A DNA stretch of 64,000 bases, taken from the NCBI RefSeq assembly GCF_000384395.1, contig NZ_ARWE01000001.1:992001-1056000 (forward strand). The letters are read 5' to 3'. The notes beneath the pieces are model-generated. The model had not been told where the DNA came from, did not search any database, and saw only the letters and a list, made by a program, of their open reading frames with translations. The DNA is from Geopsychrobacter electrodiphilus DSM 16401. GTDB lineage: Bacteria > Desulfobacterota > Desulfuromonadia > Desulfuromonadales > Geopsychrobacteraceae. This document shows positions 53,903 through 58,062 of the stretch, one piece after another; position 1 is the first letter of the stretch; each line of letters opens with the position of its first letter. A program made the translations under genes and the position numbers.

Positions 53903-55540
53903 ATGATCTACGGCAATACCAGCGGTCTGAAACCGAGTGACCATAAAGCCCTGGAGCGGATCTATCGACGCCGGGTTCCGGGTGATTCTCTGATCAGTGA
54001 TGAGTTGGCGCGCTACTTGACCGAACAGTCAGCCCAGATCGGTCGGCAGCTCGGGTTGATCATTAATCGTGCGGGTGAAGTGCTGCACGTCATTGTCGGT
54101 AATGATCGCGAAATCATGATCCCTGATCTCTCAGGGTTCGCCCTGGGCCGCAGTGGCCTGCGCGGTCTGCGCTGTATTCACACCCATCTCAAGCAGGAAC
54201 CCCTCTCCCGCGATGATCTGACTGACCTTGAACTTTTGCGTCTTGATCTGATGGTCGCTCTGGGGGTGACGGCGCAGGGCCTGCCGGGGCGCGTCGAATA
54301 TGCCCATCTGCTGCCGACGGGTGAGACGTCTCAGGTTGAACGGGTACAGGTGCCCGACTTTCATCGACTTGACCTCGATTTTAATACATTTATTCAAGCG
54401 CTTGACGCCGAGATGGAGCGACATGCGGGAGCTACGGTTGATCTTGAGGATGGCCGTGAGCGCGCGTTGTTGATTTGTGTTGGTCAGAATTCACGACGCG
54501 AAATGGAAGATTCACTCGCTGAACTGACCGAACTCGCGCGTACTGCCGACCTGCAGGTTGTTGATCAGGTGATGCAGCGACCACGACAACTTCACCCGCG
54601 CTATCTGGTCGGTGAGGGGAAGTTGCGTGAAATTGTGATCAATGCCCTGCAGCGCCGGGTGACTTTGCTGGTTTTTGACCGCGATCTGACGCCCAATCAG
54701 GTGCGCGCAATCTCCGAGGTTACGGAGGTCAAGGTTATCGACCGCACCCAGTTGATTCTCGACATCTTTGCCCGACGTGCCCAGTCGCGTGACGGCAAGG
54801 TTCAAGTTGAACTGGCACAACTCAAATATATGCTACCGCGGCTGTCGGGAAAGGGGACCGCACTCTCCCGTTTAATGGGAGGGATTGGTGGACGTGGGCC
54901 CGGCGAGACCAAGCTCGAAATTGATCGTCGTCGTACGCGAGATCGGATTCGGCGACTCGAAATGGAGCTTGACTCCTTAAGTCGCGGGCGCTTGCAGCGC
55001 CGCCAGAAACGGGTGCGTGCCCGGGTGCCGATTATTTCAATTGTCGGGTATACCAACGCCGGTAAGTCGACCCTGCTGAATGCCTTAACGCAAAGTGAGG
55101 TGTTGACCGAAAATCTGCTCTTTGCCACGCTCGATACCGCAACTCGCAGGTTACGATTTCCCCTCGATCGTGAAGTGATTATTACTGACACCGTTGGCTT
55201 CATCCGTGACCTGCCGCCCAGTTTGATCGGCGCATTTCGCGCGACCCTCGAAGAACTGGAGGACGCAGATCTGTTGTTGCATCTGGTCGATCTTTCCAAC
55301 CCCCGATTCGAAGATCAGATCGCCGCGGTCGAAAAGATTCTGGCGAGCCTTGATCTTGGCCAGCAACAGCAATTGCTTGTTTTCAATAAAACAGATCAAC
55401 TCGACAAACAGGAAGTCATAGAACTCTGTCGACGCTATGAAGCACTGGCAGTAAGTGCCTTCAATCGGCGTTCATTCGGCCCGCTGCTTGCTGCACTGCA
55501 GGCGCGTTGTTGGCCTGCTGATGAGCCTTCGCTGACTTGA
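53903..55540 (+). CDS. hflX: Ribosome-associated GTPase HflX with N-terminal JAMM-like extension
   Basis: Protein of 545 residues, about 120 longer than E. coli HflX (426). Residues about 186-545 are the standard HflX: N-terminal domain (ERALLICVGQNSRREMEDSL, HPRYLVGEGKLREI), glycine-rich linker MGGIGGRGPGETKLE, then the GTPase with G1 GYTNAGKSTLLN, G3 DTVGFIRDLPP and G4 NKTD. HflX splits stalled or heat-damaged 70S ribosomes. The extra N-terminal region (about 45-140) has a JAB/JAMM-like layout: a hydrophobic strand LGLIINRAGEVLHVIVG, then HTH (His93, His95), six residues, Ser102-x-x-Asp105, and later strands. Long HflX forms occur in clostridia and deltaproteobacteria. ATG 53903 has a weak ribosome site. 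Confidence 0.93.
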   Translation: MIYGNTSGLKPSDHKALERIYRRRVPGDSLISDELARYLTEQSAQIGRQLGLIINRAGEVLHVIVGNDREIMIPDLSGFALGRSGLRGLRCIHTHLKQEPLSRDDLTDLELLRLDLMVALGVTAQGLPGRVEYAHLLPTGETSQVERVQVPDFHRLDLDFNTFIQALDAEMERHAGATVDLEDGRERALLICVGQNSRREMEDSLAELTELARTADLQVVDQVMQRPRQLHPRYLVGEGKLREIVINALQRRVTLLVFDRDLTPNQVRAISEVTEVKVIDRTQLILDIFARRAQSRDGKVQVELAQLKYMLPRLSGKGTALSRLMGGIGGRGPGETKLEIDRRRTRDRIRRLEMELDSLSRGRLQRRQKRVRARVPIISIVGYTNAGKSTLLNALTQSEVLTENLLFATLDTATRRLRFPLDREVIITDTVGFIRDLPPSLIGAFRATLEELEDADLLLHLVDLSNPRFEDQIAAVEKILASLDLGQQQQLLVFNKTDQLDKQEVIELCRRYEALAVSAFNRRSFGPLLAALQARCWPADEPSLT

Positions 55541-55621: not shown

Positions 55622-57289
55622 ATGCGTTTTCCTCTCTTCGAATGCGGCTTTTGTAGCGCCACAATAAAGCGACTGGTCTGTGTCCTGCTGCTCTTCGGGG
55701 TCGTGGGATGTATGCCTGCCGCAGAGGTGCGACCAGGCACGCTGTCGGCGCTTCCGACACCGGCAGCAAGCGACACAGGACCAGCTTCTGTTTCCGCAGC
55801 TTCTGCCCTGGCCCCTCCGGCCTATGACGCAAAATTAACCGCGGCGGTCCTGGCAGGACTTATGGCTCCGGTCCCCCCTTCAGTTGAGGATTTTATCGCC
55901 CATCGTCCACCGTTGCAGTACACGGGTGACATCCCCTTAACTAGAAACCCGCGGATCGACGCCCTGATTAAATATTATACCGGCCCGGGTCGCACCATGT
56001 TTGGTCATTGGCTGGAACGCGCGGCCAAACATATTCCACGTATTCAAATGGTGTTTGCCAGCGAGGGTTTGCCCCTGGATTTGGCATATTTGGCCATGAT
56101 CGAGTCAGGATTTAACGAAAAGGCTTACAGCTGGGCGAATGCCGCCGGACCCTGGCAGTTTATCGAGAGCACCGGCCGGAACTATGGGCTTGAGAATAAC
56201 TGGTGGCTGGATGAACGGCGGGACATTGAAAAATCCACTCGCGCCGCAGCGGGATTTCTCAAGGATCTCGAGCAGCGTTTTGATGGGGAGTGGTATCTGG
56301 CGATTGCGGCCTATAATGCTGGTGGGGGTAAAATCAGTCAGGCGATCCGCAGCGCAGGTAGTCGAGATTTCTGGGCCCTGGCCCAGGGCGATGTGCTGCA
56401 GGCTGAAACCAAAAACTATGTACCAAAACTGCTTGCGGCCCTGACGATCGTAAGTAACCTCGAGGCCTATGGTTTTGCTGATCTGAATTTTGAACCCCAG
56501 CCGAAATATGAATTCGTTACACTACCAACGACCACAGATCTTGAGGTCGTCGCCGAATTAAGCGGCAGCGCATATGAAGAACTTAAAGATCTGAACCCGG
56601 AACTTAAACGCTGGTGCAGCCCTCCAGGGGTCCGTGACTACAAGTTACGTGTGCCCCGTGGACATGGCGAAATGTTTACAGCCTCTTTTGCCGATCTCCC
56701 GGTGGCCGATCGTGCGCGTTACCATCGTCACAAACTCGTGGCCGGAGATACCTTGCGCTCGCTGGCCCACAGATACCGGATTCAGGTTGAAGATATCGTC
56801 AGCCTCAACCGGATCACTAATCCCCGTGCCTTGCGTATTGGCACAGACCTTATCCTGCCACTGAGAGAAGGTTTTTCGCGTTTGCCGTTCGACGAAATGG
56901 TTGATGATTACCAACGTAGCCACCGGAAACGTTATACGGTGCGCGAGGGTGACAGCCTGTGGAAGATCGCTCAACGGTTCAATGTGCAGCCGCATGATTT
57001 GCGCGTCTGGAACCGCCTGGGATGGAGTAACCTGTTGCGGCCGGGACAAGTTCTTTCGGTCTCGGCGCAAGGGAAGAAAACGAAACGGCAGGCAAAGAAG
57101 ACCCGTTCCTCTGGTCCGCTGAAGAAGTTGGTCTATCAGGTTCAAAGCGGAGATACGCTCTGGGGGATCGGACGCCAGTTTGATGTTGCTACCAACCAGA
57201 TTCGTCTCTGGAATGATTTGAGCCAGAAACACGTCTTGAAGCCCGGCCAGAAATTGACCCTTCACGTTCCCCTTTCCCGTAGCAGCTGA
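55622..57289 (+). CDS. mltD: MltD-like membrane-bound lytic transglycosylase with three LysM domains
   Basis: Lipoprotein of 555 residues. The signal peptide ends at the lipobox FGVVGC (Cys30), so outer-membrane anchoring is expected. A proline/alanine-rich linker (31-90) precedes the SLT domain (about 105-260), with catalytic Glu161 in LAMIESGFN, then SWANAAGPWQFIESTGRNYGL and IAAYNAGGGKI. Three LysM repeats follow (about 373-420, 438-485, 502-550; HKLVAGDTLRSLAHRY, YTVREGDSLWKIAQRF, YQVQSGDTLWGIGRQF). It cleaves peptidoglycan strands to 1,6-anhydro products. Its stop overlaps the start of the UbiV-like gene by one base (TGATG). Confidence 0.92.
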   Translation: MRFPLFECGFCSATIKRLVCVLLLFGVVGCMPAAEVRPGTLSALPTPAASDTGPASVSAASALAPPAYDAKLTAAVLAGLMAPVPPSVEDFIAHRPPLQYTGDIPLTRNPRIDALIKYYTGPGRTMFGHWLERAAKHIPRIQMVFASEGLPLDLAYLAMIESGFNEKAYSWANAAGPWQFIESTGRNYGLENNWWLDERRDIEKSTRAAAGFLKDLEQRFDGEWYLAIAAYNAGGGKISQAIRSAGSRDFWALAQGDVLQAETKNYVPKLLAALTIVSNLEAYGFADLNFEPQPKYEFVTLPTTTDLEVVAELSGSAYEELKDLNPELKRWCSPPGVRDYKLRVPRGHGEMFTASFADLPVADRARYHRHKLVAGDTLRSLAHRYRIQVEDIVSLNRITNPRALRIGTDLILPLREGFSRLPFDEMVDDYQRSHRKRYTVREGDSLWKIAQRFNVQPHDLRVWNRLGWSNLLRPGQVLSVSAQGKKTKRQAKKTRSSGPLKKLVYQVQSGDTLWGIGRQFDVATNQIRLWNDLSQKHVLKPGQKLTLHVPLSRSS

Positions 57290-58062
57290 TGAATCCATCA
57301 CTCCTGGTTCGCGCACTGGCCCTCTCGCGGCTATCTGCCCAGTTAAGGCTAAGCGAATACCAGCGACTCTATTTCGGTGCAGAGTTCTGTAGTTGGGCCA
57401 TGCCTGTCTCCCATGAAGTACTGCGGGCGCGCCGTTTGGCCCGCGAGGCCGGGTTGGGGTTTACCCTCATGACGCCGGTGCTGCGCGAAGAAACTCTGGT
57501 GGAGTTAGCCGCCCTGTTCAAGTTACTGGCCGCTGACTGGCAGTTTGAGGACGAACTGCTGATATCCGATCTGGGGACGCTTGAGACGGCACGGCGGTAT
57601 TTACCCGAGGCACAGATTATCCTGGGCCGTGCCCTTTCAGGCCAGAAGCGCGGCCCAAGGATTGAGGCCCTGGCTCTTTCGGTTGAGGCGGCAGAATATT
57701 TTCGGCAGGGGAGCTGGTACTCACGCGAGGCTGTTCAACTGCTGGTGGAGATCGGTATTCACCGTGTTGAGCTGGATAATCTGTTGCAAGGGATCGCGCC
57801 GCTTCCTCGGGCGCTGGTTGGTTCGGTTCACATCCCCTGGTTGATGGTGACCAGCAGTCGTAACTGCCCCTATCATCCAGATAAGAGCGGTCGTCGCTGC
57901 ACGGTTAATTGCGGGGAGGCCTTCAGTTTGTGTACCCCTCAGACCCCTCAACTATTGATGCAGGCCGGGAATAGCCAATTTATCGAAAACCGCAACATCC
58001 CTTCCGATTTGGGTGCTTTACGCATCGACCGCTTGGTTGAACATCCGGCGTTGCCACGTTAA
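57289..58062 (+). CDS. U32/UbiV-like iron-sulfur protein of unknown function
   Basis: Protein of 257 residues with no signal peptide. The layout resembles the peptidase U32-related UbiV/YhbV group: RLYFGAEFCSWAM near the N-terminus, GFTLMTPVLREETLVELAALFKLL, a central ISDLGTLETARRYLP, and a C-terminal cysteine cluster. The pattern Cys34 ... Cys193-x10-Cys204-x3-Cys208 parallels the 4Fe-4S ligands known for E. coli UbiV (Cys39, Cys180, Cys193, Cys197; recalled). UbiV works with UbiU and UbiT in oxygen-independent ubiquinone hydroxylation, but no ubiU partner is nearby and this lineage uses menaquinone, so another substrate is likely. One-base overlap with mltD. Confidence 0.65.
   Translation: MNPSLLVRALALSRLSAQLRLSEYQRLYFGAEFCSWAMPVSHEVLRARRLAREAGLGFTLMTPVLREETLVELAALFKLLAADWQFEDELLISDLGTLETARRYLPEAQIILGRALSGQKRGPRIEALALSVEAAEYFRQGSWYSREAVQLLVEIGIHRVELDNLLQGIAPLPRALVGSVHIPWLMVTSSRNCPYHPDKSGRRCTVNCGEAFSLCTPQTPQLLMQAGNSQFIENRNIPSDLGALRIDRLVEHPALPR

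Follow-up and report, generated by a model that had tools for sequence, protein, structure and literature searches.

Long HflX proteins with an N-terminal domain of predicted JAB/MPN fold, probably a non-catalytic docking or regulatory module

Described relatives of the domain and of its host protein

HflX, which splits ribosomes, is a conserved factor linked to survival under stress and to tolerance of antibiotics. Among the proteins of the JAB/MPN fold, Prp8, eIF3, CSN6, and Rpn8 carry inactive MPN/Jab1 domains, a decayed site being placed within a large RNP or protein machine, and in eIF3 and Prp8 these domains work as parts of RNP machines. Clostridial long HflX proteins presumably carry an HTHP motif. 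For the JAMM metalloproteases, PMC300881 describes a glutamate that hydrogen-bonds the zinc-bound water, with a replacement by alanine abolishing the activity of Csn5. In AfJAMM, according to the same paper, alpha1 lies between strands 1 and 2, the glutamate on beta2, the histidines on beta4, and the aspartate on alpha2, which in turn is located between beta4 and beta5 (PMC300881).

On the side of HflX, the closest described system is the N-terminal extension of the mycobacterial protein (39-58 aa), which makes contact with uL16 and H38 and extends to the H69-H71 junction; lacking this extension, mycobacterial HflX splits less efficiently, and N-terminal extensions are mentioned for several Clostridium species, too (PMC12493154). 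The word "jab" is absent from the text of this HflX review. A literature search covering titles and the starts of abstracts, with preprints and most subscription papers outside its scope, revealed no description of such a domain and no link of HflX to JAB; an earlier description is possible.

The long HflX gene and its spread

The window, i.e., the whole 64,000-nucleotide stretch of DNA that was analyzed, encodes a long form of HflX, composed of the following parts:

53903..55540, + strand: hflX, long form, 545 aa (open reading frame; TIGR03156 match, E 1.8e-133, over residues 187-534)
53903..54457, + strand: N-terminal domain of predicted JAB/MPN fold together with its C-terminal helix, residues 1-185 (AlphaFold2, pLDDT 92.4)
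about residues 24-162, + strand: JAB-like part of the N-terminal domain, as predicted from the span of the VIA-align rows on the model
54461..55504, + strand: canonical HflX core (GTP-bdg_N, GTP-bdg_M, GTPase), residues 187-534 (Pfam and TIGR03156)

With 444.8 bits against a cut-off of 216.75, the NCBIfam profile TIGR03156 assigns the protein to HflX, and Pfam recognizes GTP-bdg_N, GTP-bdg_M, and MMR_HSR1 within its 545 residues. It is the only HflX above the family cut-off in its own genome, as determined by profile search. Since E. coli HflX (5ady) starts to align with its own residue 3 at residue 180 of the window protein and TIGR03156 starts at residue 187, the first ~180-185 residues represent an addition to HflX. 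The extra stretch of about 160 residues that an earlier note on this DNA had reported is therefore real and amounts to about 185 residues ahead of the core. The mycobacterial extension is likewise N-terminal, yet far shorter (39-58 aa) than this folded domain of ~185 residues (PMC12493154).

Between 49732 and 60481 of the window, the neighboring genes encode, by Pfam, an ArsP_1 permease, a Methyltrans_SAM methyltransferase with a PUA-like match, an enoyl-ACP reductase, a LysM/SLT transglycosylase, an Smr-domain protein, and a pseudouridine synthase. A similar reductase seems, by eye, to lie upstream of hflX at one further locus (L061). The gene of the transglycosylase is followed by a 257-aa open reading frame (57289-58062), for which the best Pfam match (E 0.046) stayed below the cut-off and nothing credible was found.

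When the analysis was extended to other genomes, 148 of 198 from the same phylum and 91 of 98 near relatives proved to have the N-terminal domain. Outside the phylum, it was detected in 6/9, 60/199, and 89/100 genomes of the phyla harboring loci L130 (titled Aquificota), L132 (titled Thermoanaerobaculia), and L091 (titled Nitrospirae), respectively. Among the 198 genomes from the phylum of the window, 176 gave a match to the HflX core; as judged from two lists compared by eye, 146 of these have the domain and 30 lack it. For these 30 core-only genomes, the matches listed provide 19 frame lengths, 17 of which range from 372 to 499 aa, with one of 540 and one of 1176 aa. The last one hosts its HflX core at G092:C3:494061-495104, in a genome lacking a match to the N-terminal domain, and is perhaps another large fusion. 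Titles assign the named relatives in the top 80 (out of at least 586 matches) to Desulfuromonadales, other deltaproteobacteria, Nitrospirae, Nitrospinae, Aquificota, Blastocatellia, and Thermoanaerobaculia. Two plasmid records of HflX, both from Fusobacterium, cover at least 80% of the query, and these two are the only plasmid records matched by, and carrying, the N-terminal domain; HflX on an Acetoanaerobium plasmid record is short. A search of viral contigs for relatives of the long HflX found none. The N-terminal domain of long HflX is thus a real and widespread addition for which Pfam and NCBIfam hold no family model.

In order to follow individual residues, 259 loci were condensed into 242 distinct domains, near-identical ones being counted once, and completed by the window domain to a set of 243 sequences. 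Loci for this set came from only part of the genomes with matches (148, 60, and 89). It is a non-random collection, with regions picked for diversity and divergent matches fetched deliberately; its share of broken sites is no rate for phyla.

Predicted fold and comparison with JAB families

The earlier note had proposed a JAB/JAMM-like fold for the extension. Structure prediction by AlphaFold2 on residues 1-185 with an alignment of 60 rows resulted in a confident model (pLDDT 92.4, pTM 0.88), and so did the prediction for a trimmed homologue from locus L130 (pLDDT 89.9, pTM 0.85). In its first half, the window model comprises a strand (2-4), two helices (11-22 and 33-46), a pair of strands (50-55 and 59-65), and a strand at 89-95 ending in the HxH motif. 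The second half continues with a helix (103-111) starting after Ser102, strands 116-122, 128-137, and 144-150, and a final helix (160-177). The succession of elements that the earlier note had read from the sequence recurs in the model as strand-strand-strand(HxH)-helix(SxxD)-strand. This order of elements equals that of AfJAMM as given in PMC300881.

Fold searches with both models point to the same superfamily. PfJAMM1 was the top match of VIA-align for the window model (Z 7.8, 112 residues, 3.6 A) as well as for the trimmed homologue (Z 8.9, 111 residues, 3.3 A), the former falling short of the Z of 8 below which, according to the tool, a match may reflect a common arrangement. By title or by the identity of the chain, we take 49 of the 50 rows shown per model to be JAB/MPN proteins, with 2kks unplaced. 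These rows include Rpn11, CSN5, AMSH, BRCC36, RadC, Cap3, BubCD, and Prp8; the RadC structure 2qlc (PF04002) matches the two models with Z 5.8 and 6.6, and inactive MPN/Jab1 domains appear as rows of the same fold in the Foldseek and VIA-align lists alike. Foldseek, as counted by the program itself, has no match reaching an E-value of 1e-3 or lower for either model, and its TM-scores did not exceed 0.52. A Foldseek probability of 0.99 was reached with the trimmed model only, by the first three rows, namely 2kcq (SRU_2040) and two PfJAMM1 entries; 2kcq presumably belongs to the JAB/MPN family, which is not stated in the title of the entry. The Foldseek lists also hold GAF, HPF, and DNA-deaminase rows, none of which occur among the 50 VIA-align rows shown. 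As far as its predicted models show, the HflX domain is like PfJAMM1 (5ld9) and AfJAMM (1oi0/1r5x) in fold, order of elements, the HxH ending beta4, and the aspartate starting alpha2. Membership of the domain in the JAB/MPN fold is therefore supported at the level of predicted structures.

Sequence comparison lends no support to this part of the claim. The window domain is without a match in Pfam, including RadC (PF04002) and Prok-JAB (PF14464), or in NCBIfam, searches of PDB sequences by phmmer and hmmsearch returned nothing credible, and Pfam on 21 homologues gave only four matches, each with one member, at E of at least 0.11. Using hhalign, the profile of the domain scored 11% against RadC (30 rows) and 1.6% against Prok-JAB (11 rows chosen by motif out of 16 loci tried, row L171 of which looks RadC-like); neither is significant, and HxH was placed on HxH in both comparisons alike. 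As a positive control, RadC against Prok-JAB reached 98%. Pairings with other regions of HflX ranged from 0.07 to 12.9%, RadC against the GTP-bdg_N region (12.9%) thereby exceeding the 11% of the domain itself, and column shuffles equaled the hhalign score in 2/150 and 8/150 runs. Neither Pfam nor hhalign thus yielded a significant sequence-profile match to the JAB/MPN superfamily. The closest approach came from the Fusobacterium animalis form with three sub-threshold Pfam matches, the first being RadC (E 0.035) and the third Prok-JAB (E 0.091), both sitting on the HxH..SxxD stretch. With nothing credible from Pfam, NCBIfam, and PDB and hhalign no better than an unrelated control, a sequence-only route to JAB was dropped.

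Separate JAB-type matches were observed as well. The genome of the window has a RadC-type match (E 1.3e-7) at G000:C1:267770-268000 within an 845-aa open frame and a Prok-JAB match (E 5.8e-8) at G000:C1:3941219-3941557 within a 701-aa open frame; RadC-type matches of similar strength are located in genomes G025 and G008, within open frames of 859 and 917 aa.

Conservation and loss of the metal-like site

The residues discussed in the following are located as listed, with counts referring to the set of 243 sequences:

54047..54049, + strand: Gln49, at the expected position of the JAMM catalytic glutamate, just ahead of strand beta2 (50-55), placed by topology and the Fusobacterium alignment, not by coordinates
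54068..54076, + strand: Arg56-x-Gly58 turn between strands beta2 and beta3 (R56 in 242/242 and G58 in 241/242 rows filled)
54179..54187, + strand: His93-Thr94-His95, metal-ligand-like HxH at the end of strand beta4 (89-95) (H93 in 227, T94 in 240, and H95 in 218 of 243)
54206..54217, + strand: Ser102...Asp105, SxxD-like, at the start of helix alpha2 (103-111) (D105 in 235/243; S, T, or N at 102 in 233/243)
54245..54247, + strand: Asp115, invariant (243/243), outside the metal-like site

The pattern HxH-x6-S-x2-D was confirmed at His93, His95, Ser102, and Asp105, with residues and spacing as claimed before. HxH and the aspartate occur together in 216 of the 243 distinct sequences, so the proposed conservation of both histidines and the aspartate among long HflX proteins holds; considering that His93, His95, and Asp105 are conserved across 243 distinct domains, the motif is not a product of chance. 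Position 102 is occupied by S (110), T (78), N (45), D (7), or A (3). A threonine between the histidines is in line with the HS/TH form of the JAMM motif. Compared with JAMM metalloproteases, however, the domain differs in three respects: it is fused to HflX, its spacer is x6 instead of x7, and glutamine takes the place of the glutamate. The interval from H95 to D105 spans 9 residues in 237/243, 10 (as in JAMM) in three, and 13-14 in another three. An upstream glutamate is not conserved, position 49 being Q in 222 sequences, P in 9, R in 6, E in only 5, and a gap in one. Measured against a JAMM peptidase, the window domain thereby shows the HxH and Asp ligands, while the x7 spacer (here x6) and the upstream Glu (here Gln49) are missing. 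Since Gln49 replaces the JAMM glutamate, the window domain would, judged by its residues, retain the metal ligands and be devoid of the general base. Further conserved residues are G66 (243/243) and R90 (239/243). The full JAMM motif is represented by Fusobacterium animalis HflX, in which HTHPGGNPHLSSVD has the exact x7 spacing and Glu stands at the position of Gln49; L278 and L283 likewise combine HxH with Glu at position 49.

For tracing the loss of the site, a quick tree was built on the core region of HflX with 90 of 237 full-length rows, i.e., the window, 26 rows with a broken site, three with Glu49 and an intact site, and 60 random ones. Only 33 of its 87 inner branches are starred as well supported, and the long branches L148 and L283 meet, which has to be taken as a warning. 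The best tree requires a minimum of 9 changes for the site, 10 for H95, and 3 for H93, counts that lean on weak branches; starred branches alone provide five independent contrasts for H95 and two for H93. His93 is absent from each of the 15 rows in which position 49 is R or P, and one further row without His93 has Gln49. The R49 group consists of six rows (L245-L250) with AxR, AxK, YxR, or SxR in place of HxH, and the P49 group of nine rows among L315-L334 (e.g., L318, L320, and L324) with RxQ, RxH, or RxS; both keep the remainder of the domain. Changes at position 49 correspond to two events on the best tree and to one on well-supported branches, which is below the resolution of a sign test. 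The joint loss of His93 and Gln49 fits one shared pocket, with two events at most. As R56, G58, G66, and D115 are retained where the metal-like site is lost, the domain appears to have a conserved role independent of this site in some lineages.

Role of the domain on HflX

Based on these data, the extension of HflX is probably a JAB/MPN-fold domain acting as a non-catalytic (pseudo-JAMM) docking or regulatory module rather than a peptidase. The degenerate JAMM fold considered by the earlier note is borne out by Gln at the Glu position, the short spacer, and decayed sites, whereas the peptidase activity it had suggested is unsupported for the window protein on the very same grounds. Metal binding, ribosome contact, and inactivity of the domain are predictions from sequence and models. 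In most lineages, the pocket may bind a metal for stability, this metal then being structural, and the working surface would be situated away from the metal-like pocket. The domain could dock on the 50S intersubunit face or on HflX itself; such docking is suggested by its position directly preceding ND1 of HflX and by the shorter mycobacterial extension reaching sites on the ribosome. Once docked, it may assist splitting or anti-association by strengthening the binding, by exerting steric force, or by gating. Inactive MPN/Jab1 domains offer an analogy, with the difference that most HflX domains seen keep HxH and the aspartate. This retention in 216/243 could also mean a metal-dependent function.

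Two alternatives to docking or regulation are weaker. The domain could sense a metal or a small ligand and thereby gate the GTPase or the ribosome binding of HflX, e.g., as a zinc-responsive switch. This would agree with the metal ligands being mostly kept and the catalytic glutamate mostly not; we regard it as improbable, given that several lineages have lost the ligands and kept the domain. Even less is expected of an active JAMM-type metallohydrolase, tolerating Gln49 or using another base, whose substrate on stalled ribosomes would be a nascent peptide, peptidyl-tRNA, or a ribosomal protein carrying a modification. The kept HxH..D and the glutamate-bearing forms of Fusobacterium, L278, and L283 speak for it; yet the prevalence of Gln49 (222/243), the spacer short of one residue (237/243), and several site losses in proteins that keep the domain make it unlikely. 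A version restricted to the full-motif long HflX of the Fusobacterium type (Glu and HxH-x7-S-x2-D) sees these proteins as ribosome-delivered metallohydrolases that act on stalled complexes, on the peptidyl transferase side of the 50S subunit, and the Gln-type of the window as their retired, docking-only relative; this, too, is an unlikely scenario.

All of these readings share the JAB fold, which might itself be a common alpha-beta arrangement, with HxH..D being structural in a domain of its own unrelated fold. The lack of a significant sequence link to JAB and of Foldseek matches at E 1e-3 or below would agree with that. The 49 out of 50 VIA-align rows coming from one superfamily with both models, the topological agreement with JAB in the placement of HxH and SxxD, and the weak pointers of the Fusobacterium form toward RadC and Prok-JAB argue against it, leaving it very improbable.

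If the docking or regulatory module of JAB type is true, the known structures of HflX would show only a part of the factor as it exists in these bacteria. The metal ligands on the one hand and the surface around R56 and D115 on the other would then offer a clear mutational contrast for the role of the N-terminal domain on the ribosome.
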